DNA from: Perkinsus olseni
Taxonomy: Eukaryota; Perkinsozoa; Perkinsida; Perkinsidae
Reading direction: 5' to 3'
Length of the DNA stretch: 64,000 nucleotides
Assembly (NCBI GenBank): GCA_013115135.1
Contig: JABANP010000145.1
Span: 46,903-110,902, forward strand
A program made the position numbers and the translations under genes. The notes beneath the pieces were generated by a model, which was not told the origin of the DNA, searched no databases, and saw only the letters and a list, made by a program, of their open reading frames with translations. Positions 14,284 through 63,400 of the stretch are shown here, one piece after another. Numbering within the stretch: position 1 is the first letter of the stretch; each line of letters starts with the position of its first letter.

Positions 14284-14427
14284 TGTGTAACACAATAGGG
14301 AGCAGAGTTGGATGTAACAGGAGAATAAATACAATACTTAATGATTAACAACAGCAGCCACTCTACTAGCGCATATCCTGCGCAGCCACAGCTTGTGTGG
14401 AGAGTATCTATGGAGAGCGATGCATCA
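14246..14427 (-). repeat. 5' LTR of the integrase-only element
   Basis: 182 bp, containing the ATG (14283) of the integrase ORF, and adjoined by the primer-binding-site-like sequence on its inner side. Confidence 0.88.
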
Positions 14428-41474: not shown

Positions 41475-41584
41475 TCGAAGGAGTACAAGTAAACACTGGA
41501 TGAAGGCTGTCACTCCGATTATCAACGTGACAAGAGCAGAGGGCGGTGGAGGAATCAGACAACGCTCGACAGTCGGGATTATCG

Positions 41585-41745
41585 CTCGCCTTAGGCGAGC
41601 GAGGCTAGTGCAGCAGGCGAGCGAAGCTAGTGCAGAAGGCGAGCGAGGCAGGCGAGCGAAGCTAGTGCAGCAGGCGAGCGAAGCTAGTGCAGAAGGCGAG
41701 CGAGGCTAGTGCAGCAGGCGAGCGAGGCTAGTGCAGCAGGCTAGC
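41585..41745. repeat. 22-bp tandem repeat, array 2
   Basis: Six to seven partly shuffled copies of the GGCGAGCGAGGCTAGTGCAG unit upstream of family copy 7. It is longer than array 1. Confidence 0.88.
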
Positions 41746-42332
41746 GTTTATGCAGCCCCGAGACCCGCCTTCCCCGTGACTGTCGCTAGAGTAAACTTAA
41801 CTCCACGGTCCATAGTGGCCACTCCTTCGTAGCGGCAATGACGATCCGCAAAGATTTCACCCATTTAACAATCTCGGGGATCGACTTTTCGGCTTATCGA
41901 GGGACGTGCTATTTTCTCAGGCAAATCACAAAGAAACCTGAATGATTCTCTTACTGCTTACCAAGAGGATTGCAGCGAGACACTCGATGTGGATCAAAAA
42001 ACCTTACCTTTTGGTATGGTAAGGCGAAGTGGTAGCAAGAGAAAGCTTCGCGGCGTTCGGCTGTAGTAATTTGAGAGGTCTTCGAAGCATACTAAACTTC
42101 ATTTCCATACCAGCGAGGAATTTCGGACGGTGCTCGCGAAAGCTCTTACAGAGGCCATTTCCCACGTCTGAGACGTGACGTTTCGAGGTTGACAGGGCGC
42201 GTGTTAAGGGGAGAAATTTTCTGACTCTCACACCGCATTCGGGGACGATCGAGTCAAAGCGCGGTAGACCCAATATCCATCACCAAACGGTACGCCGAGA
42301 AGCCGGAGGCTCATGAGAGATGCTTTTTGAGT

Positions 42333-42371
42333 GGCCCGATCGACCCACTGCGTGGGTACCCCGATCGGGCC
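42333..42371. repeat. nested hairpin inside the short Helitron element
   Basis: GGCCCGATCG pairs with CGATCGGGCC, and between them ACCCAC pairs with GTGGGT. It lies about 370 bp from the element's 3' end. Confidence 0.8.
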
Positions 42372-42548
42372 CTATCTGAGAGTCTGGTGTTGAGACTACT
42401 TAGCAGCGAGCTCCGAGGTCGGACGTCGTTACCTCCGCAAAGACGAGCTTGCAGCAAACTTTGCTAGCAACTTTGCTGCCAAAAGGATCCATGCTTCCAT
42501 TTAAACTTTGCTGAGCAAAGCCCACGAGGGGCAGTCGAAGCCAATCGG

Positions 42549-42950
42549 TTGCATCAGGATATGTCCAGATCGACAACCCTTCTTCGTGAAGCATGCGGAG
42601 ATATAGCTGCGCTAAACTCCTCTATGCGGGAACTATGGAAGGTTAATCATTTTTCTGGCTCCAGCACGATTCTTGACTCGATATACTGTATAGGTGCTGA
42701 TCTCGCAGACTCTGCAGAGCGGTCAGTGCGATCTTCGCCAGAAATGAACCGTTTACTCATTCTTCAGGTATGGGCCTTGCTGCATACCACCCTTCGAAAC
42801 TTACTGTCACCTCTCGAAGTCGTGGATCACGACTCTTCTCCTAGCGCCCTCGCCCTGTTTGTGTGTGCTAAGCACACTGTGCTTGAGATGTTCGACGAGC
42901 GGCTGCGTCAACAATCGACACAGTCTGTAACAGCTACGGGGGGGAGGTAG
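42549..42950 (+). CDS. unidentified 133-residue ORF in the short Helitron element
   Basis: Open from ATG to TAG with balanced composition and helical stretches (RLLILQVWALLHTTLRNLLS, ALALFVCAKHTVLEMFDERL). It has no recognised domain. It runs opposite to the element's presumed polarity, so it may be captured host sequence or chance. Confidence 0.3.
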   Translation: MHQDMSRSTTLLREACGDIAALNSSMRELWKVNHFSGSSTILDSIYCIGADLADSAERSVRSSPEMNRLLILQVWALLHTTLRNLLSPLEVVDHDSSPSALALFVCAKHTVLEMFDERLRQQSTQSVTATGGR

Positions 42951-43638
42951 CCCGCCCTGTACTCGTAATCCGATCGCGTTAGGGCAAACTTATCTCAATG
43001 GACTATCGGGTAGTCACTATCTCGCATTCCAACCTTAGCGATTTCCCCACACATGGAGTTTGAACGACTCTTGTCCAACTGAGAGCGATTAAACTCTCAC
43101 TCAGTAGCCACGGGCACCCAAAATTGTCATCGGTAACTCATAGGGTCTCTTAGACAAGTTATGGTTCCGTGATGTGGAGCCGTAACGGCTCAGCCGTTGC
43201 ACGCATGACCCAATGGGGAGAGTGGCCATTCAACGCAATATGTTCTCACAGAGTAAGCTGACGATCCCAACCCCAATGGGACTGCTCGACGATCTGGAGT
43301 GCGAATGCACCAACGGCGTAGGTACCACCATTGAGTATGACGGGGGTTCATACCAAGCCAGCGCGTTTCGGGGAACGCACGCATGCTCATACGCATGTCC
43401 AAACGCATGCCCAACGCTAGAGAACGCATGACTGCGCAGGATCCGTAATCGCTTATAACTTCATAGCCAGAGCGCTAATAGCTAGCTGAGGGTAATGGAC
43501 AGAACCGGTAACTCCTCCCATACCTCTTCCCCGAATTTCAGCCTCATACCTGCTGTGCACTAAAAATAAAGTAAATAATACCAAAAATCACGATTTGCTT
43601 CAACTAGTCTATGGGTCTTGCGGGGTCCGTGGGGTAAC

Positions 43639-43679
43639 TTTCGCGCTCGCCCGGGGGCCCCAACCCCCGGAGCGCGAAA
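43639..43679. repeat. subterminal hairpin of the short Helitron element
   Basis: TTTCGCGCT and AGCGCGAAA enclose a CCGGGGG/CCCCCGG inner stem. It is nearly the same as 55549-55590. Confidence 0.85.
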
Positions 43680-43750
43680 GGGCGCCTTCGGCGTGCAATT
43701 AAGCTTTTGGCAAAGCAAGTTCGCGCCTGCACCTGCACCAAGAGGATTGC

Positions 43751-44458
43751 TGCAAGAAAAGTGAAGAAATTAAGAAGGAAAGAACAACGCAACACAGAGT
43801 AATGCACATCATCTACTAACACAACATGTCACAACTAATGAGAAATATTGAATGGGCAATTCTCATAAGGATAAAGATGATTTGTAGAATGCAACCCAAT
43901 AATAAACATAATGATAGACGTTTGTTACTGCGGGAAGCATTTTTATCAACAATGAATGATCGATAATGACTCATGACATATTAAGTGATAGCTTTGTCAT
44001 CCAGGCAGTATAAAACTGCCAATGTAAATGATATAGCAATGAATCCTCAGACGAACATTAGGATAAACCTACATACAACGGCGTCAGCGTTTTCTGTGAA
44101 GTAGGGATACGGGCGCTTTGTTCGAAGATTTACCTACAACAGAAGGAAATAATTATCAATTCATACAAACAGAAATAATGACGAAAATATGAAAATGGGA
44201 ATTGCAATAAACATACAGTACACAAGGTCAAGAAATACATTTATATAGTATATAATATCGTAAAAGCTACGTGTACTTGTATAAGCAAACACAAAAGACG
44301 AATACAAAAATATGATGCGAATATTAAAGAATATACGAACATGTTGAAAGAAAATCAGTATGACAACTCTAGAAAAAGCACGTATTTCTGTACCATAATA
44401 CAGAAATATACGCCAAAGAAAATCACAGGTCATATAAAAGAGAGTCGAATAACTTACT
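43751..44458. other. 3' region of the large Helitron, AT-rich, non-coding
   Basis: AT-rich sequence between the zinc-binding protein gene and the 3' terminus. A hydrophobic minus-strand frame (44478-44161) is rich in Phe/Tyr/Ile as expected from base composition and is not called. Confidence 0.5.
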
Positions 44459-45562
44459 TCATGATTCTTCGTTGTCATCTGGAGTTACCTTTGCATTATC
44501 GCAGATCTGTTGAATAGTAGAACTCAGATGAATAGACACGTTGACCACGTGAATAGTTCTAACATTTGTGTCAACCGTGTCTCCTTCAGGATTCTTCACA
44601 GATCCGCCCATCGTCCAACCATATAACATATAATAAGAATTTGAATCGTCGTTTACAGTTTGGGATATAGTACGAACAGCTTCACGCAAGCGAGATATTT
44701 TCTTATTAACGGTAGCAGTTAGTTGTTCAAAACTGACGTCCAATAGTTGATCAGCAAGAAAGTATTGAGCAAATGAGCGACCACTCACCACGATCGGACA
44801 CTCGGGGATATCGGAAATGAATGACGGTTCGATCGTCGCCTGAATACTATATCGAGCTTGAGAATGAACGGATCCAGTACAAACCTTGCAGAAAGCTCTG
44901 GTGCTACTCGGATTTTGCATCAGCGAACGAGTACGATTACAGAATCTATTACCACAAGTACCGTTGATAAAGCGAGCATTATGGAAGTACAGTTGATCAA
45001 CGATGATATTGAAGACGTGTAAACCAGAGCTTTCGATACCATTCAATACGAGTTGAAATCCACTTATAGGTGGCACATAACACTTGTTTATATTGGTTTC
45101 TGGAAACACAGGATATTTTGTGACTAGTACTGGTACCGACGCCTCGCCTCGTCCTAAACTTTCCCCTTCGTACGTACACTCTATCACATTTACCCACGCA
45201 GATAGAGCCATAGAGGATTCCAATTGCATCAGACTTGAACTTTCTTGACGATTCATCGTTTTCACTACAAACGGCAAACTACTTTTCGCACACGAAAAAA
45301 AATACAGTTTATAATAAGAAGAACGTGACTGACCAGATTTGTAGTTGAACTTATTCTTGCTTTGGTTGGTAGAGATCCAACCACCCTTACCGTCATCGAC
45401 ACCTTGCTTCACTCTCAGCAACCGAGCTTGTAGAACATGTTCGGCTGGCACTAGTCTTGATACCACTTGTTTGAGCGTAACACGTGGGTAAACTTCCTCT
45501 GAGTCAATCAATAACTGCATTTCTTGCAGAAGATCCTTATCCAATTTGGAAACAACACTCAT
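44459..45562 (-). CDS. zinc-binding protein of the Helitron, possibly RPA-like
   Basis: 367 residues from ATG 45562 to a stop at 44459. A four-cysteine cluster at Cys203, Cys208, Cys225 and Cys228 (CGNRFC ... CKVC) lies in the second half and is spaced like the zinc ribbon in the C-terminal OB fold of RPA70. Beta-rich segments precede it (YYKLYFFSCAKSSLPFVVK, SAWVNVIECTYEG). Plant and some other Helitrons carry RPA-like ssDNA-binding proteins, which would fit a role in protecting the displaced strand. The match rests on the zinc pattern and context only; OB folds cannot be proven by eye. It is the 3'-most gene of the element. Confidence 0.5.
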   Translation of the reverse strand: MSVVSKLDKDLLQEMQLLIDSEEVYPRVTLKQVVSRLVPAEHVLQARLLRVKQGVDDGKGGWISTNQSKNKFNYKSGQSRSSYYKLYFFSCAKSSLPFVVKTMNRQESSSLMQLESSMALSAWVNVIECTYEGESLGRGEASVPVLVTKYPVFPETNINKCYVPPISGFQLVLNGIESSGLHVFNIIVDQLYFHNARFINGTCGNRFCNRTRSLMQNPSSTRAFCKVCTGSVHSQARYSIQATIEPSFISDIPECPIVVSGRSFAQYFLADQLLDVSFEQLTATVNKKISRLREAVRTISQTVNDDSNSYYMLYGWTMGGSVKNPEGDTVDTNVRTIHVVNVSIHLSSTIQQICDNAKVTPDDNEES

Positions 45563-46311
45563 GGGTGATGCAAAATAATCAGATAAAGTCCTGTTGCAAT
45601 ACTACAATGCGATGAACTCGAAGAAAAATGATAATACAACTTCGACAATGTGTTCACTTGAAAAAAGTATCCTTTCAATTTCACGAAAAAGAAGCTTCCG
45701 TTAAAAGAGGAGTGTATGCCAGCGATATACTACACTGTCGATCATCATCATCCAAGTCGTCCAAATAACTTAGTTTCATACATAAGTAATAATAATCTTG
45801 ATATTGATTGAATATCAAATAATACTCACAATATTGCCAGTACTAGTCTGATACAAAATTCATATATAAACACAACATAAATATAAAATAGTCATTGATT
45901 AACATCCCTCCACTATCTCCAATGACAATAATCAAGTCTCTACTTGAAATCAATGAAATCGTCGTCGAGAATAACAGCATACTAATATGCTGATTGTACT
46001 GAATCTTTATTTGAATACGATAATCATTCATAATCATATTTTCTCTTTCAACATAACATGATGACAATTACGACGAGCATAATAGTGAACAAAGCATGCT
46101 ATAATAACAAATACTCACATCTAACGTCTCTCAAAATTACAATTTTACATCATGAGTGATTCATATGATGTGTCTTTTCACCAATGAAAAATATGAATCA
46201 CAAATTATAGAAATGAGATCATGATGACAAAAGAGAGTCATATTATTAGTTTTTGAAGCGGTTTCGCGCGCCCAAGCAGGTCACGCGAAACCGCAGTTTT
46301 ATGAATATCAT
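45563..46311. other. intergenic AT-rich region within the Helitron
   Basis: Non-coding apart from short AT-driven frames. It contains the hairpin at 46258-46294 immediately downstream of the OTU-like gene. Confidence 0.5.
46258..46294. repeat. 11-bp perfect hairpin stem between OTU-like and zinc-protein genes
   Basis: GCGGTTTCGCG and CGCGAAACCGC flank a 15-base loop. It lies 18 bp past the OTU-like stop codon in an otherwise AT-rich region, so it could act in transcript 3'-end formation or as a replication stop. Confidence 0.85.
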
Positions 46312-47115
46312 TTATGATACGGGATTCATACTCGACTGATGTTTTGTAAACAGCGGCACATAATGTAGCGATCCATAATTATACAGCATCAAGTTCAAAG
46401 ACTCTGTCATACATCCAGATTCCTCAACACGCTCACCATAAATTCTACGGAATGTGGTAGGTATGTCCTCTTCTTGTGGTATATCGATGTTGAGTAGCAT
46501 CGAACGATCACATGCAGATCTGGCTTCTATGTATAAAGGCGGACGATCTGGTTTCACTTCAAGAATGAGCCAGAATGCATCTAGAATGAAATGGCCGTGT
46601 TTGGAGTGTTGGAGAAACTCAGATTCGGTAGCCAACCCGTAGTCAACTAGATACTGACGAGCCAGATTCACGAGAGGGATTTGATCAGAGGATTGGTGTA
46701 GGACGAGAAGGTTTTCATGCTCACATAACTGTAAAAGACTGTGAATAAGACAATTATTGCCAGACGATGTTGCTTTACCAAATGTGTAAGTTTTACTTAA
46801 GTAATCGACATATACTGCTTCAAATATAGTATCACTTTGAACAATTGAATATATATCAGTAACATTCGGATTTTCTTTATTAATATTAGATCGCAGCTTT
46901 AACACATCCAGCTTTCGGCTTTTCGGCCGAGAATCGGAAATGTCTTCTCTTGTGGTCAGTGGCTTCTTCTCCTTCCTTAGAGATGCAAGCATTTTAGCAG
47001 CTTCGGTTTTGTCGATGTCGGCATCTACTGGTAGTTTGTAGGCGAAGAACTGATGAACGACAGATTCTTCCATTCCGCCGCTGATAACCTTCGGATGATT
47101 GATCTGTGAAGTCAT
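46312..47115 (-). CDS. OTU-like cysteine protease of the Helitron
   Basis: 267 residues from ATG 47115. The N-terminal third is charged and low in structure (SLRKEKKPLTTREDISDSRP). The catalytic-type motif SSGNNCLIHSLLQL places Cys122 in the position of the OTU GDGNC motif, followed by a helix as in that family. Near the C-terminus GSLHYVPLF supplies the likely catalytic His251. The first Asp of the usual DGNC motif is replaced (GNNC). OTU enzymes cleave ubiquitin chains, and OTU domains are known in some animal Helitrons, where they may blunt host control. Activity here is inferred, not shown. Confidence 0.6.
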   Translation of the reverse strand: MTSQINHPKVISGGMEESVVHQFFAYKLPVDADIDKTEAAKMLASLRKEKKPLTTREDISDSRPKSRKLDVLKLRSNINKENPNVTDIYSIVQSDTIFEAVYVDYLSKTYTFGKATSSGNNCLIHSLLQLCEHENLLVLHQSSDQIPLVNLARQYLVDYGLATESEFLQHSKHGHFILDAFWLILEVKPDRPPLYIEARSACDRSMLLNIDIPQEEDIPTTFRRIYGERVEESGCMTESLNLMLYNYGSLHYVPLFTKHQSSMNPVS

Positions 47116-47342
47116 GTTTAACCAATGAAAGTAGATTTGCTGGCCAATTTACCTGACAAGCATTGCAATCTTGATAAACACTCGATAACTTGTATAAGAA
47201 TCACACGTCTAATAACCCGATATTATTAACACCACGCGTAATTCATTGAAACGAAACGTAATCAATAGCTGTTACGAGAACTAAATACTATGATAAACTC
47301 GATGAAATTGATAATGTTATTACTCTTATTGAGAATCACCGT

Positions 47343-50279
47343 TTACCGTAAACGCGTTGTATAGTAGTTAATGAAAATCAAATCAGGATACCTACTGCGA
47401 AATGACAACATAATGTTATAACCTTTATCAAGTACATTTTGTGGTGAATCAGACCGACGAATAGTTGAGTGCCATGCTTGTTCTAATTCCAGTCGAGCAT
47501 CACGAGCTACCGTCGAATCGATATCGGAATGAGGAAAACCCATGATGAGGCCAGCTACAGCGAATGGACGCACATACGTGCTACATGTATGCACCGACCC
47601 CTTTAAGCCTCGATTATGTTGATCCAATCGACGTCTAATACTTTTACAGGAACCAACATAGCTGTATAACGTAAGCCGTGTACTGATCAAACTGTAAACA
47701 AAACCACCTGGTCTTCTAGGAAGGGGGACAACTCGAAGTGGAAGTGAATTCAGTCTGGAATAGATCAATTTACACGGCCTTCGACATAGTAGAGAAGAAG
47801 ACATCGCCTCGATAACATGAGTGGCATAAGAAGTCCACGAAGAAGTCTGTTTCAGTAGATATTGTACCGTACTTTTGATCTCATCTGCCGTGTTGATAAA
47901 AATGATCCTATCTAACGAAGGTACCCTACTAATTAACACCAGTAGTTGTTGTCTTTCCCAGAGAGTGAATTCCTTCTGCATAGGATCTCCTCCAGAATAG
48001 CTGATCTTAGTAATAATACCGGGTAAAGTGTCTCCCAAACTCTTGTGTATTGTTTGAGAGACGAAGTTTTTGACTCCATACTGCCTTCGTCGTAGCAGAA
48101 CACCTCTAGCACTAATCTCAAAGCCAACCTCTTTACGAATAGTAACATCTTTCCATCCACTTGATAGTAGTGGTTGATCCACATGAGATATAAAGCGAGC
48201 ACCGGGTGGAGCAACTCGCAGGTGTAAAACATCTTCAGGAGAATCTGGAAGTTTGGTACATATGCAGATTTGACCTTGTGAATATACGTTATCAGCACTA
48301 AGATCATTGCGAGTTAATCTTAATATACTGCCCTCCTTTATTTTCAGCGTGGCCGGCTCCATAACATGGGCATCAAGTATTTTAGAATAGCGGGTACCAG
48401 CGGATCTCCATCTTGCATGTAAACCACCTTCGTTATATTCATCTTCTGCGGAACTTTCAAAAACCCTTTGACCACAGGCAGCACATGATTGTAAATACGT
48501 GAAAAAGCGTTGCACAGCCGCTCTTTCACTACGTTTTTGGCTATAAACCTCACATATCCCAACGCCAGCAAGACTCCTAGCTTCTTCGATAGAACAACAT
48601 AACTTACATCGATGAATAATGGCGTCCGAGACGTAAGTGATATCATAATCCGTTATCTCATCACTATCTTTTCTCAAGATATCAATAACTCGCTGTAACA
48701 CCATGTCAGACGCTGAACGTACATAGTGGCGTAAAATAAAAGCAGAGAAGTGACTTATAAGATAGTTGGATGTCCATAATGGCGGGCCAGATATTGGACT
48801 TAATTGGCGATAGTCGCCAGTGCCAATCACAAGACTCCCGGCCCAGGGCAATCTACTATCTCGAAGCTCACGAAGTATCGAGTCAAGTATCAGAAAGGTT
48901 GTTTCATCAACAAGACCGATTTCCTCAATCAAAAATATGTCTATCGAAAGCAAGTATGCTGTATGTAGAGGAGAACGTCGTAAGCGCTGCACGCTTTGAC
49001 TTATTAACTCAGTGGTGGTCAAATAAGAACCGTGACGCACAACAACGAGATTGAATAATCTATGCAGATGCTGACCACCGTATCGTTGAGCAGTTTCTGA
49101 CGATAAAGCAACGGTAACAGTTTCTAGGCCGAAGGATCTTGCCACAGCAAGGGGTAACATTGCTACAAAGGATTTCCCTGTCCCTGGGGATCCCAGCAAT
49201 AGAGGAAAAGGAATAAAAGACTTATTTCCACTCCGAAAAGCCGATATCGCGGCAAGACAATGATCAAGGGCAAGACGCTGCTCCGACAACGATGCGGGAT
49301 CAGTGCCAGGACTCAGCGAAATAGTAGGATGCCAGCGAACGGGAGTTTGCAATTCAGCATACTGTAGAAGCTCTGTTGATGGTAAGTCATCAAACTTAAA
49401 CTCAGATAATGCTCGGCAAAATCGCTCTCGATTCTTAAGAATTAATTCCCGTAATTCTACCGTGTGAGCTTCTTGAAGTTGTCGTAGTAGTATGAGAGGA
49501 GTATCAAGAAACTGAATCTCGTGGTTGTCAGTTACCATCAAACAATGTAAGATGTATCTAGCAGAGCGGAGATGATAATCAAAACGTCGCTGAGGACCCG
49601 GCATAGCACGTAGTTCACGCATTGCCCAGCTGTCCAACAGTTGGAGCACAGAGCGTTCTCTGTTGTCCGAGTTGTACAAACCAACTCTCTCGAACGCATC
49701 GAGGAGAGTAGCTGCCGAAAAAACTTCAATTTCACAAGTATATCTTCCATAATATAATATTAAATGAGTCAGCCAGCGTATGCTCATATCCGGAAGAATA
49801 AACTTCGGAACTATTTGTATGAGAATTGGTGGCGATATATCCACATAATTGGTAAATTGCAAGGGTTCTAATGATAAAGGTAGCAGGGTTCTCTCCCAAT
49901 AAACATGCAACAAAGGGTGAAAACTACCATGATCACCGTTAAGAACAGCTTGTATAAAATTGGAAAATGAAACCACTGCATTCAAACGTAGCTTGGTAAT
50001 TCTATCTAACCCATCCAGCCACATTCCACTTTGAAGAATTTCTTCTATAGTATCATGAACCACAGCTTCATCACAACGTAGAGGCACCCAGATGAACCAT
50101 TCCAGATACAACGACAGATAACATACGTGAAGTAGTTCTGGAGGTCTAAGGCCGAAACACGTGACCTTATCAGGATAATAATCACGTTGTTTGACATCAT
50201 CGATTAGAAGAAGTTGCGACGGCGTATATTGATGGAACGCTCTAGTTGCCGAGGCGTATTCCGCACAGAAGGAGGCCAT
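47343..50279 (-). CDS. PIF1-type helicase fused to C-terminal GIY-YIG nuclease (Helitron)
   Basis: About 978 residues from ATG 50279. After an N-terminal region typical of Helitron proteins, Walker A LLLGSPGTGKS lies near residue 365, Walker B-like FLIEEIGLVDE near 450, and LVIGTGDYRQLSPI (helicase motif III) follows about 45 residues later; HKSLGDTLPG resembles a late PIF1 motif. The C-terminal 90 residues form a GIY-YIG-type nuclease: FVYSLIS, YSYVGSCKSIRRRLDQHNRG with the Arg and His expected after the second motif, and a downstream Glu in ARLELEQAWH. Helicases of this family unwind DNA during rolling-circle transposition; the nuclease could nick target or host DNA. Usual Helitrons have Rep and helicase in one protein; here the helicase is separate. 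Confidence 0.82.
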   Translation of the reverse strand: MASFCAEYASATRAFHQYTPSQLLLIDDVKQRDYYPDKVTCFGLRPPELLHVCYLSLYLEWFIWVPLRCDEAVVHDTIEEILQSGMWLDGLDRITKLRLNAVVSFSNFIQAVLNGDHGSFHPLLHVYWERTLLPLSLEPLQFTNYVDISPPILIQIVPKFILPDMSIRWLTHLILYYGRYTCEIEVFSAATLLDAFERVGLYNSDNRERSVLQLLDSWAMRELRAMPGPQRRFDYHLRSARYILHCLMVTDNHEIQFLDTPLILLRQLQEAHTVELRELILKNRERFCRALSEFKFDDLPSTELLQYAELQTPVRWHPTISLSPGTDPASLSEQRLALDHCLAAISAFRSGNKSFIPFPLLLGSPGTGKSFVAMLPLAVARSFGLETVTVALSSETAQRYGGQHLHRLFNLVVVRHGSYLTTTELISQSVQRLRRSPLHTAYLLSIDIFLIEEIGLVDETTFLILDSILRELRDSRLPWAGSLVIGTGDYRQLSPISGPPLWTSNYLISHFSAFILRHYVRSASDMVLQRVIDILRKDSDEITDYDITYVSDAIIHRCKLCCSIEEARSLAGVGICEVYSQKRSERAAVQRFFTYLQSCAACGQRVFESSAEDEYNEGGLHARWRSAGTRYSKILDAHVMEPATLKIKEGSILRLTRNDLSADNVYSQGQICICTKLPDSPEDVLHLRVAPPGARFISHVDQPLLSSGWKDVTIRKEVGFEISARGVLLRRRQYGVKNFVSQTIHKSLGDTLPGIITKISYSGGDPMQKEFTLWERQQLLVLISRVPSLDRIIFINTADEIKSTVQYLLKQTSSWTSYATHVIEAMSSSLLCRRPCKLIYSRLNSLPLRVVPLPRRPGGFVYSLISTRLTLYSYVGSCKSIRRRLDQHNRGLKGSVHTCSTYVRPFAVAGLIMGFPHSDIDSTVARDARLELEQAWHSTIRRSDSPQNVLDKGYNIMLSFRSRYPDLIFINYYTTRLR

Positions 50280-50381
50280 GACAATCAAAAGACTTCACAA
50301 TTTAACTTGGAAAAGTACGTAAGAAAGCTTTATTTTCAACACTCGAAGACCAACGCAACTATAAAAGCACAGAAACCAATA

Positions 50382-53300
50382 TTAATACTGTTCTGGTAAC
50401 CGTTCACGAATATAATATTGAAATGGAAAAGGCCCTTCAGCGAAGTTGCTCACTCCCAATCGACGTTTCTTAGGTTTGTGTACTAATGGACGATTCTCAG
50501 CGACATCGGTGTTAACATGCAAGAAGGAGACATTCGTGTGGACGTACTCGAAGCCTAAGGTGTAGAATATAGCTTCAGGAAGTGTGACGAGTCTACCTTG
50601 AAGACGATGATTTTGGATAGTCCCCAGCTGTTGTTGCTTTTTGGTAGAAGTAGAACATCTACCCATATCAATCGATGTAGAAGTCGGACCTCCTGCTTTC
50701 AGTAAAACAGGCTGATAGGTCTGAGATTTCCCAGCATAACTTGCTAAATAGCGAGCACACATAGACCAGTCTGTAAGTAAAACATTAACATTAGCTCTGC
50801 ATAGACAGAACAAATACGGGTTACAAGGAACCCATTGGATATTATCATGATGATCTGTAGCGTATAACCACCTTCCTGGCTTCCAATCCAATCTGATATG
50901 TTTCTGACCATTTTCGTCGATCCGAGCCCAACCGATATCACAATAGAGCTCGAAATCTTCTTCGGAGATATCTCTGTCTATTTCACTATATATAGTAGTA
51001 GTTGACGGTGGATAATAAGGTACTTTACAAACTAAATTACCATTAACATCTCGCTTTTGGCATTTGCCAGCAGAAGCTTGGCAAGAATGCTGCTGGACAC
51101 GGTGGTAAAGATCGCACAAGTAGTCCCAATCCAACTCATTCTTCACCAACCCAGAGGCCATAAGCTTTTCTTTCCAGCTGTAGAATTGTTGAAATGAGCA
51201 GCAAATTCTATGCTTTGCTATGTTCACATTCTCGTTACTCCATAGCAGAAGGTGATAATGAGGTAAATTGGACTCATTGAACTCATACCGTCCCCAAAAG
51301 TGGGTTATTTCTCCTAGTGGTTTCTGAGGGCTTGAGCAAATGAATTCGACTACCTTTTGAACAGTATGATACCAATTAACAAGCATCGGGGTGCAAGCAG
51401 CTTGCCGCAATGACTCGGCATCTACAAAAACTCGGGACTCATTCATCATCGCACGTTGCATCAAGTCGTTGATAGGCTTCAAGGTAGGCGTACCGTCTTG
51501 GTTTGCAGTCAGTGTAACGAAGAATAACGGAGGAGACGATGAAATCAAACTCGCTAATTCTCGCACTCTTTTCTGATGATCACCGTAATCTCGAGTAAAA
51601 ACCTCCTTGGAACTCAGTGGAACCCTATGGGCAGCACCTGAAATGTGCTCCCAACCGATGCGCATGACCATGTTCAATGTAGAATATCGAAGCATCGTAT
51701 TAAGAGCAAAATCGAACAACAAAGCTCCATAAGTCGAATCTGACGAACATAAGCTTGCCCAATCCATTAGTCGCAGAACTGCATGTTGACGAAAGGATGC
51801 AAAGCCGAGGCTATCACTATATAAAGTTATCGGTAATGCTCCTGGAATCGAACCATTGAACATCACCCAAAAGATAACAGGTAATACCAGGGCCTCGGGA
51901 TACAGTAATGAGCAGCAATCGCCAGACTTGCTTACCAGACTTTGAAATAACCTTTGAGCACGTCGAGATAGCTTTGCTACGTAGGCCCTCCGCTTCAAAG
52001 CACCGCAAAGACCATTAATCAGGAATACTCCAGACACCCTGTCGGCAAAAGGATTTGATAAATAGATATCAGCACTACTTGCTTGCGGGCAAATGTCGCA
52101 CGACGTCTCATCCGAGGTATCGTCATCACTGCTTACATCCCCAACAAAACATGCGCCACCATCGGCTATATCTTCATCAGCATACTGCTGAGATGCCTGA
52201 ATTTGAGATCTTCGAACAATTTGCTTAACAACCGCTGAGTTCAACTGTGTCTCATCAGGAGGAGCAATATAGTAGATTGGGCCACGAATAGAGTCACATA
52301 TAAAAGCATAAGCTTTACTACATATAGCTGTTCTACACTGTGTTGCAAAAGGACAAGAGAAAACTGATTTGTGTTGCCGATTAGGACAATGCGAGAAACA
52401 GCAAAAAAAACTAGACGGAAAATCATCTTTGACCAATCTGATACGATGAATTTTACAGAACACTTTTCGTTGACCATCTAAAAAAGACATAAAATCTACA
52501 TCGTTATCGTGATTACATTGGAATTCTTGTTGATCATCTACTAGAGAATACTGAACACAAACAACAGATTTAAATTTGAACTGGAAGTCCTCTGTGGAAC
52601 TCATTGTAGCATGCTGCCCGTAGTGGCATTCCCACCATCCAGTTCGTCCACCACCATGTCTAACGTATCCAATGATATTACATGAACTTCGGCTTTCATC
52701 CACTACATACACTGCACGAAGATGAAATCGTGATCCAAGTATAGTTGGTAATGGCGAATCAGACAATTTCCAAAGCTCTCCCTCATCCTGGCTCCAGCGT
52801 CGAATAAACGTTATGCCGCCAGTACTACTTTCATCACCAGTACTAACATCAGCCAAAAAAGCTGAGATCTCCAGCACATCAAGTGCATAACACCGTATGC
52901 CAGCTGAATGTAGGCAAATACGTAGACAATGAGCAAAATCACTACAAAAAGAGCGACGTTGACTACCGTGATTGTCAATCGATAAGATATTCGCAATCGC
53001 CCGAAAGAATGGATGAGGCGATTGGCGCTTGTTCCGCACAAGAGACTCAATCAACAATTTTAACTGCTTCCGGCAAGGGATCCACAACGAGGAGGAAGAT
53101 GAAGAAGTACTTAGGAGGCTCATACAAAAAGCAGGACATACACTCACTGTGACAAGTAGCATCCACACTAAGTAGCATGCCAATAGACTGCTATAGTCAG
53201 TAGCTCGTGTAATCCGTATAACTGATGGTGTCCTTGGTCTGCTACCATAAGGACCGGACTCATGCGCATATGGAACATAGACATCTCTATCTATATCAGC

Positions 53301-54576
53301 AGTTTTACCGGAATGCATTAAAAGTTGTCGCATACGCATGACATCGGAGGCATCAACCATTGTACTACCAGATAAAGATTGTCCAATACATATATCGCTC
53401 GTTGTAGCATCTTTCAAAGATAGCAGAACAGCTTCCGCAATATGATTTGGTACTTGACCACGATCGACACGCCGAATAAAATCCTCGAACACATCACGCC
53501 GTTCTCTGAGAGTTACAGATTCTGCTACACATGTACGTGGAGACACATGATTCCATACGCCATCGGGTGCTAAACTGAAACAGCTCAACCCATTCGACGT
53601 AAACGATTCACGATACAACTGCCAAGTAGTACAAAAGACGCCTGTTTTAGCAGGTTTAACTACCCGAGGTTGAAGATGAAGCATCGCCAAATTGTCACTT
53701 TGTGATAATGGCACACTTCCAAGGGTAGGATGATATGGTACATGAATATATTGATCTCTACTCCCGCGTTGGTGATTGCAACACGTGATAAATGATAAAC
53801 CACCCTTAGCGTCAATGACAGTACCAGGACATACCGAGACCAGGTCGAATAATCCCGCGACACAACGATCCAACCAATCTGATCTGATACCAACCAATCC
53901 AATTCCATGTCCTGCTTGACTAACTCTTATAGACGAATCGAATGTATAAAATAAATGGTGTAAAGGTATAGTGCCATAACCCTCCAACAAACATACAAAG
54001 CATCCCCAAGGACATCTAATCATCGGCAATGCATATTGTTCAAGACTTCGATAGAAGTCGTCATATAACATACGGCCACTAGGTAAAGGATGATCAATGA
54101 TAAATTTCGTGAAATCTCTAAACGCAGTTTGAGGACAAGATAAGTGCTCCTCGAAATCCATCCACGACATTCTCAGCTCCCATGATAAGGCTTTTAAAAC
54201 CTTATCTCTAGAGTCAGGAGCCAAAATATGTCCATAAAGAATGGACCAAATATATGCTGGCCATATACTCTTCCATCGCAAGTTTCCTTCAATAGCATAT
54301 TCCACACACGAACCACACAGATTAACACATGTACTTAAAGAAGATCTCTTGATTTTTCGTCCATATCTTATACTCCTCATACAACATCTGGCCGCGGAAT
54401 AAAATCGTAACTCACAAAACTTTGTAGACCGCCGCCAACACACTTCACAACGTGTAGTGGAAGCAAACATATTCTCATCTGAAATCATTCTCCACTCTCT
54501 CAAAAAAGGGACAACGGAGTAACTCACCTTGAGATCCAATACAATTCGCCTCAGAATTCGAACAAATTTCTTTCAT
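50382..54576 (-). CDS. Helitron Rep (HUH endonuclease) protein, two exons
   Basis: Exons 54576-54528 and 54478-50382, split by a 49-nt GTGAGT...TTTCAG intron in phase 1, give 1381 residues without interruption. The N-terminus holds a Cys-rich zinc-finger-like stretch (TTRCEVCWRRSTKFCELRF) and later CHYGQH and CDICP clusters. The Rep domain is in the last third: FVTLTANQ (motif 1), PHYHLLLW (metal-binding HUH-type motif 2) and ARYLASYAGKS (paired tyrosines of motif 3). Such enzymes nick one strand at the element end and stay bound through tyrosine. No helicase is attached; the PIF1 protein follows after about 100 bp. In other Helitrons these are fused, so either the genes are truly split or an unrecognised splice joins them. 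Confidence 0.83.
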
Positions 54577-55642
54577 GCAAAACTTTTCCTGATGAAAAAT
54601 ACCAATCATATCAAATCGCTGACCTTCGCAGCACAGAAATTTGAAATTCCACGCCCGTAAAAACCGTCAAATTAAACTACATTCGATTTCTAATAATGAT
54701 GCTCTACTCCCAATTTGAGAACCCCAAACCAACACCTATGCAACACTTATTTTCTCTAAACAGATCACAAATATTATCCCTGGACTACTTGCCCCTTTCC
54801 TTCTTCAATCCGACCTTCACCTTCCCCGCTTAACATTTAAGATTGCTAAAACAAATCGAACTACTTCGGATATTTTCATCCTGGCAATGGTCACCACAAG
54901 CTTATTAGATTACAAATATGATAACCCTCACAAACCCTAACGTACAATTCCAAGAAATGCTCGTTAAAAGGCAGCCAAACACGCTTGTACCCAAAAACAC
55001 CACGCTAGACTGGCATTGCCAGCATAATGACCCAATATTAACCTCTTCATTGAACGAAAATCCACGATGCGAAGGACTTACACGCATGCACAATAATCTG
55101 CACGCATGCCCTCGGGGAACGAAAAGATCTTCGACACTCTATAAAAGTAACAACATAGATTGAAAATAAAAGTCACCTGAAAATGTCGACTAACCCAAAA
55201 ACGCAATCCAGCAACCCCATACGTAACATCATTCGATGCATCAAAAGTTCACAATGCACCAGCACGTCTTGAAGCATGAACGCATGTACCCACGCATGCA
55301 CATTCGAGGCTGTACGCATGCCCTGCGCATGATCACTTATCCGCTAATAACTCCCTAGCCAAGTAGCTATCGGCCACCCGACGAACTTCTGTAGCATCCA
55401 CCTCTCAACCTCTACCTGCTGTCTGAATCTCAGCTTCGTAGCTGTTGTACATCTCGAATTAAACATGATCAACGACGAACAAAATTTCCAAATCTCACTT
55501 GCCTAACATACCAAAGGTTCTGGGAACTTGCGGGGAATTAGAAGTGCTTTTCGCGCTCGCCCGGGGGGCCCAAACCCCCGGAGCGCGAAATAGCGCCTAC
55601 GGCGTACACTTAAGCTTTTGGGAAAGCAAGTTCGCGCCCACA
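54577..55642. other. 5' region of the large Helitron (promoter and terminus)
   Basis: No coding frame. It carries ACGCATG-type motifs near 55080-55110 and 55268-55330, the GC hairpin at 55549-55590 and the terminal GGCGCGAACTTGC sequence. The promoter for the Rep gene must lie here, but no core element was recognised. Confidence 0.55.
55549..55590. repeat. subterminal hairpin of the large Helitron
   Basis: TTTCGCGCT ... AGCGCGAAA with an inner CCGGGGG/CCCCCGG stem, about 55-95 bp from the 5' terminus. Confidence 0.87.
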
Positions 55643-57184
55643 CCCAGCCATTGAATTTCACCCTGATGTTTAAAAGGACTAAATATTTCGCGATGATAGA
55701 GAGAGGTTGTCAGAAACGCCGAAAGGCTGATTCTACAGTGAAACCTCCCCCAGGGGAATGGTTGGCCCTGTACCCAAGCGCGGCGGTCGAGGGTGAAGCG
55801 TCTCCAGTGAAGTCCCCGCAACCTTGCGACGAGGCGCTCGGTTGCGGTGCTGTGGCCACGACGCCTGGATGAGTGTGATCTCTCAGTTCTAGTAGACCTG
55901 CCCTACTGCATAGCCTTCTACTCCTCGTTGACGCATTCGGATCGATGATGCGTGAACAGAGTAGCCTTTCTCGCAATCGACCTCACAAGCCTATCAGTGA
56001 ATATCGGCTGAGCGCCTTCAATCGACCATCACCACCAAAGGTGGAACTACCAGCCACGTCTTCCATGACGCATCCCTTAAATATCCAACCCAACGACCAT
56101 GACTGGTTGAACCATATGGCACTCCCGCCATGTGTGATATACTGGTGCACGAAGCACCTTCGGACAGTTCAAGAAAGTCTTAACAACTGTAACATTGATA
56201 TCATCATCAAATACGCTCTACAAGAACGGCTATGTTGAGAAGTACATCGAGGCGCCGTCATTATCACCATCACTCCGGAGGGCAGAGCCATGAACACATC
56301 CTGTCTACATACTTGTGTGGCCGCTGTGTGAGAGCTAGTAGTACTTTCTTCAAGCACAATATGACCACCACTTGAACGGCAACACTGGTAAGGCAAACCC
56401 AAGGCCCAGGCCTGGTCACAAGACCGCCCTCAAAGTTCCACACAGCCGTCAGGGTTACCGAGTGGACGACGGATAGACAGAGACAGATGAATCTGCACAT
56501 TCGCCGAGCAAACGAAGAGCAGCAACCGAGCATGGCAGCAGAACCGTAGACGCAGTAGAAGAGTATGTGCAGAATGATACGCATGGCGGTGACTGTGATA
56601 CCCGTGACGATGCGACCGGTGAGCATAGTAGCACAAATCATCGGGAAAGCATTAACTAGTGTTATCCTCAGGCTGTACTCATTGGCACCCCATTGGTTGA
56701 AGAGATGAGCGAAAAGCTTCTTCGCTTGCGATCGGAAGTTTTCGAAGTCGCCGTAGAGTCTCTCGATATGCTGCATGATCATGACTCTGTCTCCTTCTAG
56801 ATAACACTTCAACGCTCGGGCGTCGAACCTCAAAAGATCCTGCTGCAGCTTCAACCGAGGCTTGCCGTCAATGTACAGGCAGAAATACCCTGTGCAAAGG
56901 GAAAATACCAAATCAATGAGCCAGCCCGGTAAAAAGACATCGCCATCGAGAGCAGTGCGAAGGGCCCAGTAAAGCTGCTGGAAGGACATAATCCTCACTC
57001 GGTTCTCGATGATCAGAAGTGGCCAAATCTCAACATTCGGAGACGAGTCTGTTCTGAGGAAGCAGGCCAGCTCGAAGATGCACCAGAGCCTCTCATTATA
57101 ATCCGCGCTCCAAAAAATGACCAACTTCTGAGACCGCTGGAGGTAGTCGCCGATGTGCTTTATCCCTTCTAGTTTCTTCGCTTC
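55643..57184. repeat. segmental duplication unit 2, right part of copy B
   Basis: Matches 29944-31482 almost base for base. The left part of the same duplicated block is at about 40650-41910 (compare 28014-29880). The Helitron pair separates the two parts. Confidence 0.85.
56270..57184 (-). pseudogene. FISHSW/TIR-like membrane protein, second copy, cut by BEL/Pao insertion
   Basis: Nearly identical to the C-terminal two thirds of the gene at 30466-31962 from about IGDYLQRSQK to the end. At 57184 the match stops in the codons for EAKK and the retrotransposon begins. The N-terminal part, including FISHSW, must lie beyond the retrotransposon, outside the window. After NFEGGL a one-base difference (near 56420, compare 30718) puts this copy in a frame ending MCSWLCPPE instead of the other copy's longer tail. 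Confidence 0.78.
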
Positions 57185-57467: not shown

Positions 57468-60400
57468 ATGGTAGCAGCTCCTTGTTATGTTTGGACTAGA
57501 CCTTTACTTGGTCGTCTTAAGCGGTTCCAGTTAGAAAGTATCTGTGTTGGTCGACAACTTGAGATTTGCCACACTGTAAATGAGTTCGTAGAGACCATTA
57601 TGGCAAACGACGAGCGTGTGATGAATTCTACAGAGTTGGTTTTGTACAAGTCAGTTTACAAAACGGTGTACAATGAAGATCCACCAGAACCTGAGTCCAG
57701 TCCAGATGATTCTTTTCAACGATCAGGGTTGCTGAGTGCTTCTAAGGATGACCGTCCTTCCTCTTCTTTGGAAGAAGGCATTCTTCCTTCTTCCTCCGCT
57801 AGTGGTGATGTTAGTCCCGTAGCTGGTACGGAAGAAGGTACTAAAGGAGGCGTTGTGGAAACGACTCATAGAGTTTCGGTTCCTGGGAAGTCTTCCTCGC
57901 CTTCTGAGAGTTCTCCTGTGGTATCTCCGCCTCCTACCTCGCAGACTGATTTAGCCGTAGAAATGACTAAATTACGAACGATGGTACAAGAACGGTTTGT
58001 TGGTATTACTTCGGTCTTGGATAGATTTGCTACTCGACAAGAGCAAACTAATGCTAGGTTGAGCTATAATGAATCTATTCTTAATAGTAAGATCGATATG
58101 TTATCCAGTCGGTTCGATAAGGTTGGTGATACTATCATGGTTCAACTCTATAAATCTCCGTTAGCTAAGGAGGTTACTGATATGCGAGAGCATCTTGAGA
58201 AGGGTTTGGTATCATTGCATTCACTTCAACAAGATGTTGCTGACCTGGGTCGCAGAATGTCGGCATTCGAAGCTGATGCCTCCGTTCAGCTGCCTAGGAT
58301 GGTTCCTTTCGATAATACTTGGTCAGCTTATAATGTTAAGGCTAGTCCGAGTGTTGATCGTAAGGATATTATTGATATAGCTGATGATAGCTATGTTACG
58401 ATGAGAAAGAAGCATTCTTCATCCACTGATGATGGAGATGGTTCTCTCATCATTAACAAAGGATTAGAAGGTTATCGTCAAGATGTTGGTATGTCTGGTA
58501 ACGCTTTCACTCCCGATGATGGTGATGTGAAACCTAACTCCTTTGTCCCGGTGCCTGAGAAGAATGATGACTATGATAAGTTGGTTTCTCTATATGAAGA
58601 ACAACGTCGGTCTCTTCTTCGTTTGCAGGATAAGCTGGGTTTAAAGGGCGACAAGTCTGTTCCCGCCGGTAGCTTTGGTCGGTTTGTGGACGATTTTGGT
58701 CAGCAAGTTAATGGTCCTTCCAAGATGAAGAGCCAGATACCTGTTGATAAGGTCCCTTCGTCGCCTCAAGGTGGTAGTGATCCGTTCTTCCCACAAGGTA
58801 TGAAGGATATGAGTGGTCGTCAACCTGAGGCCTATAATACACCTCTTAATGGTATTGGTTCGTCCTTCCCACAAGGTATGAAGGATATGAGTGACCGTCA
58901 ACCTGAGGTTATATCTACTCCTCTTCGTGGTTATGATCCGTCTTCGCCTAAGGTTATAGAAGATATGAGTGGTCGGTTACCCGAAGTTGGTTCTTCTCCT
59001 TCTTTGAAGGATGTGGTTCGTATTAATCCTAAAAAGGCTTCGGTACGTAGTCATATGGGTTATGCGATGCCGGCTTATGGTTATTTGGAGAGCTTTTGGT
59101 TACTTCCTCCACAATGGCAGAAGGGAGTACCAAAGGATCTCCCTTCGTGGGGTGAGGATTCTTCGTTGAGTTCAAGCCAACTTAACTTTGTCAAGCGACG
59201 AGTAGATCAAGCAGCTGATGACTTGGTTAAGCAGGTGAAGAAACTGAAGGATGGTCCCTACAAAGGTTCGGCCGATAAGCGTACTTGGTATAGTATCGAA
59301 CGAGAGATCGTTGATAACTTGATCCTTTCTTCGATTGACTGTGCTAAGGTTCATGTCAAATATTTACTCAACTGTGTTGAGCAAGATATTCGACAGGTTG
59401 TTATGCAGCGTGTTCGTGCTTGGAATTATAAGCATGCTAACCACGTTGAGTTATTGAGTACCGTGTGGGGTATCTTTGATGAACTCTTCCGTAGTGAGTC
59501 AACTCCCGAAACTGTTAGCGACAGGATGCAAAATCTAAAGAAATCGACAAAGGAAACTTTGCCTGAATTCCTATATAGATTGCAGAATGCGTTTTTCAGC
59601 GTAGAGGTTGAAACTGGTCAACGGTTGGTTGATTCTACTAAGGTCACTAGGATGAGAGGTGCTCTTTCTGAGGTTGACGTCCAGTTCATTCGTGAACATT
59701 TTGACCGTAGCCTAGGGTTTGATGAGTTGGTTGCTAAGATTGGCGAGTTCTTTTCTAATGATCTCGACAAGAAAAGCTACGAGACCTATGTTCGTAATTA
59801 TGCTCTTATCTGGAAGTCAGAAGTGGTTCATACTAATATGAACATGGAAACTTCTGGCGAAGATAGTCTTATACCGAACCCAAGTATTAACCCTAAAAAG
59901 GGTAAGAAAGGGAAAGGTAATAAGTCAGTTGCTATGGTCTCTCCTCCTACTTCATCGCCGAAGGTTTGTAGACGTTGTGGGTCCGTAGGGCACGAAGCTA
60001 GTACTTGTTATAAGACTCTGCCTGAAACCTTGATGAAACGTTGCCAACTTTGTGGTGATACTAATCATAAGGCTCAACAGTGTCCGAAAGACAAGAATAC
60101 TCTTCGTTGTTCGCGTTGCCACATGGTTGGTCATTTAGATGTTGTTTGTTATGTTCCTTGGAGCCAAATAGCTAGCCCCAAGGTCGGTACAGATCAGCCT
60201 CAACAACCCCAAGGTAACTTTAAGCCCCAGATTAACTACCAAAAGGATAAGCAGTCTGCAACCGATAAGGTTGCAGCAGGGGCGGAAGGTGTCAGTAATA
60301 GTACTGATTCTAACTCAACGGTTGATATGAGCGCGGCTAGAGTTGACTGTTGTAAAGCTCAGATGGTTAGTAAACTTGAACTTCATGAAGGCCTATTACT

Positions 60401-63400
60401 TGGTTCTATTGAGGTTTACTCCAAGCACGCTGAAGGTAACTATGTTACTCTTAAAGGACTGCTAGATACTGGTGCGTCTACTGGTTTTATAGATGAATCG
60501 TTGGCTTACCAATTGCAGTCTAGTGGTACGGGCGTTATTCTTGATCTATCCAATGTTATGACCGTTAAGTTAGCAGACAAAACTAAACGTTCTCTGTCTA
60601 AGTATTGGGAATGCTATGTTCGTCAGCTAGCTAACGATGGCCAGATTGTCTGGAAGTTGATGAAGTTCAATATTATGCCGGGAACTAACACGCCGGGTAT
60701 TATAATTGGTCGGTCGCAATTTTCAGACCTTGGCTATGTCGTTGGTAAAACGGTGCATTGTGATGGTCAAGAGTGTTTGTTAGCTCACGTCGGTGACCCC
60801 AAACTGCAAGAAGAGTTCCCTGATGAGCCCTTTACGGTGAGTTGTGGACATGTGCTACAAGATCCGGTAGGTCATGAAGATCCTCTCCATGCAGAGAAGG
60901 TTGCTAGGTCTAGGAAGAAGGGTAAAATGGTATATGAGACTAAGGAGTATGATGGTAGGATAGCTGCCTTAGAGTGGAAATCCTCCAAAAGACCCCCTAG
61001 ATCTTATGGCGCTGCAGTTAAACGGTCTGAACGGTTGCTTTATTCCTTGAGGCGTGCAGGTGGTGACGACTTGGTCAAGAAGTACGATGAGCAATTTGAA
61101 GGTTGGTTGGAACAAGGTTTTATAAGTCCTGTTCCTGATGATCAAGTGAAACACTACTTGTTTCATCATCCAGTTATTCGTGTTGGCCATCCTACTACCC
61201 CTGTTCGTCCGGTTATCAACGGCCAGTCCCTCGACCCATACTTGAATGAAACTGTATGTGAGTTGCTTAGGATCGTTGATATCTTGGTTGGTTGGAGACA
61301 AGCTCGTAAGTGGGCAGCCTTCGACTTGAGTAAGGCATTCTTACGCATTCAAATGCGCAAAGAGGATTGTCCTTACCTTGGTATTTATTGGAAGAACCAA
61401 AGCTATGTCTTTAACGTCCTTCCATTTGGTCTAAGTATGAGTCCCTCTTGGTTGACGGCTAACATTAAAGAAGTGCTGGTACGTCTCAGTAAGGACCCCG
61501 CCTTCTCTTCGCAAGTTCTTCCTTACATGGATGACTTAATGTTGTTGATACAAGATGGTGTAGACATCATAACACAACAGCATGCCTTGGTACGAAGGTT
61601 CGAAGAAGATGGTTTTCCTATTGCTACGTCTAAGACGGTTTGGTTTACTCAAGCCGAGTCGTCTAAGATTTTAGGTGTTCCTTGGTATGGCGCTCTTTCC
61701 GACTCTATAGGAGTTAGCTTCACCTTCAAAGGAGATGTTGTTGATTCTCGTAGAAAGTTGGTAGCCATGGTTAACGCCTTTTACGACCCGTTAGGGCTTT
61801 GCCTCGAGTTCGAGATGACTGGGCGAAAACTAATGAGGTTGGTATCTTCTCTAGAATGGGATGCAGATCTAACGCCGGAACTCTATTCCGAAGCTAATTC
61901 CTGGCTAATTAAAGCTAAGAAGATTGCCAAAGAATTTAGATGTCCTAGGTTAATAGACTGCTCTCAGTTGGTTGTTTATGCCGATGCTAGTGCTGACTCT
62001 TGGGGAGTTGATGTCCGAGACCGCCAAGGTGTACGCGTATTAGCTGTTGGTGGGTTATTTCCTGTCGATAGACAGGAAAAATGGACTATCCCTAAGAAGG
62101 AACTACTAGCCTTGGTTCATAGCCGAGAAGTAGTAACCCGTATCTGGAAAGATTTCGCTGATAGTGATAGCAAGAGGTCTGTGATTATTCTTAGTGATTC
62201 TCAGATTAATTGTTACCGCCTTCATAAGGAAATTCAATCCAAAGATACAAAAGCGTGGGAGTTGAAGACAATAGCTTCCTTACGTGGTTGGTTACTAAAT
62301 AATGATGTTATTCTTCGTCATGTTGCTACTGATTGGAATGTAGCCGATGCGATTACTCGTGGTTGCTTTCCTAATCTGGTTAGCTCAGATAAGATCAACG
62401 CCACTATAGGTTGGTTGAGCTCTGGTTATTCTAACCAGGCTCCTTGGGGAGATACTATCAACTTCGAACATGAAGAATTGAAGTTTGAGAAGGCCCTCAA
62501 GAAAGACTACGATAGCCAGTCTATGTTAGTAACCGATCAACATGAAGAAGAATGTGCTAATGCCAAGATAGTGCTCAAGCTCCCTAAGCTCTCGGTTGGC
62601 CATCTTAAGGTTGCTATTCTGAAACACCAAAAGTTACTGAATAGACTTCGTTGGTGGTACAGCAAAGCTACCAAAAGACCGTATGTAGAGTTGAATATTC
62701 AGGAAGCTTGGGAGAGGTTGGTGAGATTTAAGCAGAGATCATATCCTTCTACCCTCAAACTGATTGATCAGTATGATGGTATGAATGACTCTACTAATCT
62801 CAAAGAGAGGAATAAGTTTAAGGCTTACTATGAGGTTAGTCAACCATCTGGTATCTTATATAGAGTGGTTCGTCAAAGTTATGATGGAGACCCGTATTAT
62901 CAGATGGTTATTCCTCACGAAGACCCTATTACTTACGATCTTATTTATATATTTCATTATTCTCGTGCTCATTCTGGTTTGGCGGTTACCCTCCAAGCAC
63001 TGAAAGAAGAATGTTGGTGGCACAATATGAGAAGAATGACTAAACGGTTCGTATCTTCATGTATTATATGTAAGTTGGTCCGAGGACGTCGAGAACATCC
63101 CGGTTATTCTGGCCTACTAAAAATGGAACCACAACCTTGGTATGTCGTGGGTATAGATATAACCGGCCCATATACTAGGTCGAAAGAAGGTTATAAATAT
63201 TTGCTCACTATGACTTGTCAATTTTCAAGATTCATGGTGGTCATGCCGTTGGTGAACTTATCTGCTAAGTCGGTGTGTGAAGCATTTAGAACGACTTGTA
63301 AAAGGTATGGTGTTCCTACGATATTGTTAAGTGACAATGGTTCCCAGTTTGTTAGTAAACAATTTGAGGACCTATGCCACGAAATGTCGATCGAACACAA

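Follow-up and report, generated by a model that had tools for sequence, protein, structure and literature searches.

A Helitron-like element of Perkinsus olseni with a GIY-YIG nuclease domain on its helicase

Introduction

Canonical Helitrons (Helitron1) encode a single Rep-helicase protein (RepHel), insert at A|T and have 5' TC and 3' CTRR ends; HUH enzymes such as their Rep cut defined sequences. To our knowledge, the processing of target and second strand that follows Rep-mediated joining of a Helitron is unsettled. The element described here occupies 11,905 bp of the minus strand (43738..55642) of a 64,000-nt stretch of Perkinsus olseni DNA (C52:46903-110902, hereafter the window), part of a genome of 61.5 Mb in 968 contigs. 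It has the characteristics of the Helitron superfamily, namely an HUH Rep with two tyrosines, a PIF1-type helicase and insertion without target duplication, and its helicase carries a C-terminal GIY-YIG domain. Shared with Helitron1 are the HUH/Y2 Rep, the helicase, the lack of target duplication and a 3' end that begins with CT, whereas the 5' TG and 3' CTKGG ends, the absence of A|T insertion, the extra nuclease and, in the subclade of the window element, the separation of Rep from helicase are differences.

Helentron/Helitron2 elements, according to two reports, contain Rep and a PIF1-type helicase with a C-terminal apurinic/apyrimidinic (AP) endonuclease, insert at TT without duplication and carry accessory open reading frames (ORFs) that have been assigned to OTU protease and RPA (PMC4067079, PMC5148889). 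On that description, the window element resembles them in its Rep and PIF1-type helicase, added C-terminal endonuclease and lack of target duplication but differs in having GIY-YIG in the place of the AP endonuclease (no window protein matched PF03372) and in being inserted at CTRGG|T rather than TT; for its accessory ORFs, the comparison with OTU and RPA extends to motifs, without profile or fold support. GIY-YIG domains of other eukaryotic mobile elements are described for Penelope-like elements and Terminons, the latter being able to carry Rep proteins as well (PMC5753468, PMC5718144, PMC6431247), and for a protein of the viral mariner element PGv-1 (PMC3627910). The former are reverse-transcriptase (RT) elements, unlike the window element, in the four ORFs of which no RT match was found with Pfam. 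The likeness to PGv-1 is that of a GIY-YIG nuclease within a DNA transposon, but there the nuclease is a separate protein beside the mariner transposase, and a Rep/helicase fusion is not described in the available part of that report. No description of a Helitron helicase-GIY-YIG fusion was found in the accessible literature on Helitrons with GIY-YIG, SLX1 or Pif1, or in that on Helentron endonucleases and on protist, Perkinsus or dinoflagellate Helitrons (Repbase and subscription papers lay outside the search).

Results

Identity and conservation of the GIY-YIG domain

The helicase gene (47343..50288, minus strand) encodes 981 aa as listed, or 978 aa counted from a conserved ATG. Profile searches of this protein gave matches above the Pfam cut-offs to both PIF1 (E 8e-9, 35.8 bits vs cut-off 25.9) and GIY-YIG (E 7.4e-6, 26.6 bits vs cut-off 22.6), the latter at residues 862-940 (47469..47705, minus strand), and a GIY-YIG fold was present in the structure model of the domain. 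The core claim of the original prediction, a Helitron-type element with GIY-YIG on its helicase, was thus borne out by Pfam, by the predicted fold and by the catalytic residues; fold and residues had both been put forward as decisive, and the residues were conserved in 14/14 aligned sibling copies. In its profile matches and predicted structure the domain is SLX1-like, SLX1 and its plant relative HIGLE being the best profile and fold matches. The GIY-YIG domain that it has in common with these proteins is here part of a transposon helicase. SLX1 proper works together with SLX4 and possesses an additional zinc domain (RING/PHD-like) at its C-terminus, whereas the helicase has only approximately 40 residues beyond its GIY-YIG domain, with no further Pfam match there. 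Proteasome matches in the domain profile search (E 7e-4 and weaker) were regarded as chance similarity, and NCBIfam searches of the domain copies gave weak matches only, that of the window copy being far below cut-off.

A search of the genome for GIY-YIG gave 17 matches, all above cut-off (a lower bound, as is the count of helicase matches), and 17/17 overlapped the C-termini of helicase copies, which argues that the fusion is more than chance. As no GIY-YIG was found outside these helicases, no host SLX1 was seen in the genome, although an intron-split gene could have escaped this search. Fourteen of the 18 copies that reach the region of the domain were aligned, those omitted being C448, C131 and C929, which are the same or nearly the same in the domain as others, and the 18th copy, C422, which is degenerate. 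The aligned copies were 25-37% identical to the window copy, with one exception at 73%, and each was matched by Pfam GIY-YIG at E <=0.1. Tyr36, Tyr48, Gly50, Arg58, His62, Thr72, Pro79, Arg103 and Glu107 (domain-piece numbering) were invariant in 14/14.

Among 11 copy pairs tested for selection on the domain, two had informative synonymous divergence (dS). Thus, the ratio of nonsynonymous to synonymous divergence (dN/dS) was 0.09 for C888/C25 (proportions of synonymous and nonsynonymous differences, pS 0.31 and pN 0.035; bootstrap pN/pS 0.03-0.24) and 0.09 for C929/C670 (pS 0.10, pN 0.010; bootstrap 0.00-0.43). Values of 0.07-0.09 for four pairs were saturated (dS >2), dS was not estimable for three pairs, and the domain sequences of C718/C448 and C375/C131 were nearly or quite identical. 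Upstream of the domain, C375/C131 gave a dN/dS of 0.64, which fits C131 being broken by stops. Judged from these comparisons of sequence, the GIY-YIG active site is intact and under purifying selection, and a chance or decayed GIY-YIG was rejected on the combined grounds of the 17/17 matches at helicase C-termini, the invariant catalytic residues and the selection result. A passive host fragment, captured by the element and without function in transposition, is very improbable. Gene-fragment capture by Helitrons is known, and the domains of C422 and of two relatives from beyond this genome, P0001 and P0002, are degenerate, but the active site was retained in 14/14 aligned copies from this genome as well as in 16/16 environmental proteins that reach it, and a dN/dS of approximately 0.09 contradicts the absence of function.

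Rep gene and its separation from the helicase gene

The Rep gene (50382..54539, minus strand) encodes 1385 aa, with a TTG start as listed. Residues 989-1099 matched Helitron_like_N (Pfam; E 2e-7, 31.8 bits vs cut-off 28.9), and the HUH (LPHYHLLLW) and YxxxY (RYLASY) motifs both aligned with those of relatives, in agreement with the Rep originally predicted. A PADLOC run on Rep and helicase gave no match.

The spacer between the Rep and helicase frames (50289..50381, minus strand) has stops in all frames. In C52, C718, C448 and C375, a gap that aligned poorly or not at all separated the Rep stop from the conserved helicase ATG downstream, GT/AG not being conserved among these spacers, and a stop and gap were noted between Rep and helicase of C214 as well. 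The Rep stop and helicase ATG of the window copy are retained in C718/C448 but its GT is not, and an intron between Rep and helicase was rejected on this ground. In C161, a single open frame of 2,429 codons spans Rep and helicase (1,471 codons of this frame were read), and the joint was contiguous and in frame in C706, C652 and C670. Because these four copies are in one frame across the joint, the separation of Rep and helicase looks like a feature of the subclade of the window element and not of the GIY-YIG fusion as such. Separate genes, as first proposed, are present in the window but are not a hallmark of the fusion.

Ends of the element and target site

The element starts with TGTGGGCGCGAAC at 55642 and ends with CAATCCTCTTGG at 43738, and the ORF listing of the window places four ORFs between these points, all in the same direction on the minus strand. 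Both predicted bounds agreed with the ends of other copies and with empty sites, the exact position being uncertain by a few bases within GGT. Sixteen 5' ends were compared with one another, as were eleven 3' ends (those of the two window elements and nine more), the latter sample consisting of the autonomous element together with ten of 23 matches to the 3' region of a non-autonomous element of the same family. CTNGG|TG was found at 11/16 5' junctions and CTNGG|T at 9/11 3' ends; the misses were C510 and C556 (different, duplicated start), C52b (6 bp behind the autonomous element), C2 (weak copy), C92 (CTGCG) and C889/C676 (CTTCG). Insertion events were not all independent, since flanks were common to C448/C718, C495a/b, C868/C92, C889/C676 and C587/C495c.

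Five joined flank pairs were searched for empty sites, of which three were clean and without target duplication, i.e., CTAGG|TGA for C875 (L086-L088), CTAGG|TTCT for C67 (L089) and CTGGG|TCCGGG for C92 (L090, with a second copy, L091, shorter by one G). No clean empty site was found for the flank pair of C889, the flanks of which were found only separately, or for that of the window element, both flanks of which are carried by C63 approximately 65 bp apart. These findings identify the insertion target as CTRGG|T, with the joint ambiguous within GGT and A|T ruled out.

The nature of the target bears on roles that the original prediction had offered for the nuclease, namely target choice and second-strand nicking. 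In the manner of a homing or retroelement endonuclease, the GIY-YIG domain could pick or open the target, nicking the second strand prior to insertion, as do GIY-YIG in Penelope-like elements and the AP endonuclease in Helentrons, and the insertion target is indeed fairly specific. Target choice by the domain is disfavoured, however, given the match between the target and the motif at the 3' end of the element itself, and the duplication-free insertions give no support to nicking of the second strand before insertion, though it may still occur. This role is considered unlikely.

Relatives in other sequence sets and phylogeny

A search of approximately 5.8 billion proteins gave four relatives, one of which, P0003, had both PIF1 and GIY-YIG, and a profile search gave seven, mostly distant. 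With P0003 as query, 23 matches including itself were obtained; five catalytic residues were retained in all 16 that reached the domain, six (P0004, P0016, P0017, P0020, P0029 and P0031) stopped before or inside it and P0032 was a weak match to the helicase only. In an alignment of 22 domain rows (four of this genome, P0001, P0002 and the 16 proteins noted above), 20 were intact whereas P0001 and P0002 retained the domain without its catalytic residues. HUH and YxxxY motifs, helicase and GIY-YIG were all in one chain in P0013, P0022, P0024, P0025 and P0026. Among seven environmental proteins scanned with Pfam, GIY-YIG was found in 7/7, PIF1 above cut-off in 5/7 and Helitron_like_N in 2/7, both below cut-off. 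On viral contigs, none of 36 pattern matches from the first query set were relatives, and the 4/572 from the other set that were related matched no further than the helicase core, at 24-29% identity, with no full relative; on prokaryote contigs, 0/118 pattern matches were relatives.

In a Rep-domain tree of 16 rows, 11 GIY rows fell on one side of a branch with support 99/97, as did P0005, which ends before the domain, while three other Helitron-like rows of the genome fell outside together with P0008, a Rep-helicase with the AP-endonuclease-type family PF03372. The helicase tree (30 rows) placed the 24 rows counted as GIY in a clade of their own (100/100); among these are the degenerate P0001 and P0002 as well as P0004 and P0016, which end before or inside the domain. 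As proteins with the same fusion occur in environmental sequence sets, the element may represent an undescribed branch of the Helitron group.

Proposed role of the nuclease

From its sequence, the window element is probably a rolling-circle transposon that is autonomous and belongs to a distinct lineage of Helitron-like elements, with an SLX1-type and probably structure-specific nuclease on its helicase that would resolve the branch formed on integration. Rep would nick CTNGG|T in the target as well as at the 5' junction and 3' end of the element. One strand would be peeled away by the helicase and joined to the target in single-stranded or circular form, whereupon the GIY-YIG domain would cut the strand facing or adjoining the branch so formed (a flap, fork or junction), allowing the second strand to be completed. 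The AP endonuclease of Helentrons is possibly a convergent answer to the same problem. That CTNGG|T recurs in the target and at both ends of the element (in front of the 5' end, and at the 3' end) is consistent with the action of one enzyme, Rep, at all three sites, so that some other step would fall to the SLX1-type domain. PDB entry titles describe Slx1-Slx4 as a nuclease of branched DNA, and the presumed joining of a displaced or circular strand to the target would produce a branch in need of resolution.

Several observations weigh against this role. Neither the SLX4 partner nor the zinc domain of SLX1 was seen in the element, and other Helitrons manage without a GIY-YIG nuclease. The loss of catalytic residues in P0001 and P0002 suggests that some elements may not need the nuclease, and C422, a copy in this genome, is degenerate. 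Kinship with known Helitrons is distant, given that Helitron_like_N touched only 2/7 environmental proteins, both below cut-off, and domain-less relatives may be under-sampled in the trees because the rows were gathered by similarity to GIY-bearing proteins. An SLX1-like fold and the existence of tandem copies would also be consistent with service of the domain in the element's own replication or excision, e.g., at the donor, where it might trim flaps or resolve forks or multimeric circles. The present evidence does not separate such a role from resolution at the target, and we rate it as having a slim chance of being correct.

Fusion of a helicase to an SLX1-like, presumably branched-DNA nuclease provides a candidate enzyme and substrate class for the processing of target and second strand by Helitrons. 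A broader view, advanced tentatively and falling short of likely, is that these elements constitute a third, deeply branching nuclease class among Helitron-like elements and are widespread in microbial eukaryotes. On this view, an SLX1-type domain became fused to RepHel a single time, early on, and cuts a branched intermediate of integration, and the pentanucleotide target, which resembles the 3' end of the element itself, is read by Rep alone. Were this correct, second-strand completion would be explained, and the AP endonuclease of Helentrons would be a convergent solution. The fusion also extends GIY-YIG nucleases of eukaryotic elements, as known from the accessible literature, past Penelope-like/Terminon retroelements and a viral mariner, and it provides an annotation signature for a rolling-circle group largely missed by Pfam Helitron_like_N.

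Accessory ORFs and neighbouring sequences

Profiles upheld two of the four genes originally named, Rep and helicase-GIY-YIG, whereas the names OTU and zinc-ribbon rest on motifs and are unproven. The OTU-like ORF (46312..47115, minus strand, 267 aa), a motif-level assignment, had NNCLI and HYxPL motifs in 4/4 aligned copies but no match among Pfam and PDB profiles. The zinc-ribbon ORF (44459..45562, minus strand, 367 aa) had CxxxxC...CxxC in 2/3 aligned copies, these being the ones that reach the region; it had no Pfam or PDB profile match, and its structure model was unusable (predicted local distance difference test score, pLDDT, 29.8). By comparison with RPA, and without profile or fold support, an RPA-like single-strand binding protein is possible. 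Downstream of the helicase in C25, C888, C670, C929 and C422 is a conserved ORF that starts with MSKH[LHP]P; it is placed like the accessory ORFs of the window and, by eye, may correspond distantly to the zinc-ribbon ORF.

A non-autonomous element of the same family (41961..43731, minus strand, 1,771 bp) has 5' and 3' ends in common with the autonomous element and lies in tandem behind it, separated by 6 bp (TGCAGG). In RNA folds made without a shuffled control, the first 150 nt of the autonomous element gave -53.8 kcal/mol, with a strong stem-loop near the 5' end (55546..55590, minus strand), and the first 150 nt of the non-autonomous element also gave approximately -54 kcal/mol; near the 3' end, where canonical Helitron1 elements have a hairpin, the former had no strong stem just before its terminus and the latter had weak stems. 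Rfam (gathering threshold) and tRNA scans of the window gave no matches. Just behind the non-autonomous element is a tandem array (41571-41772) with a unit of approximately 22 bp (AGGCGAGCGAGGCTAGTGCAGC).

A spliced-leader 21-mer was noted approximately 893 bp past matches to the non-autonomous 3' region in C587, C648 and C828, perhaps in a shared flank. Spliced-leader sequence of dinoflagellate/perkinsid type was found at 183 sites in the genome with <=2 mismatches vs 0 for a reversed control, which points to a probable perkinsid or dinoflagellate host; the exact TTTT form of the leader was found at 0 sites.

An ORF upstream of the element (56270-57124) had weak similarity to TIR_2 (E 0.047, under cut-off). 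Beyond it, a plus-strand frame of 2,177 codons (57468-63998) that continues past the window edge resembles, by eye, a gypsy-type long terminal repeat retrotransposon polyprotein, with zinc knuckles, RT and integrase. Another ORF of 551 aa (12679-14334, minus strand), similar by eye to a retroelement integrase, adjoins the low-GC stretch of the window (approximately 15-19 kb, GC approximately 0.39).
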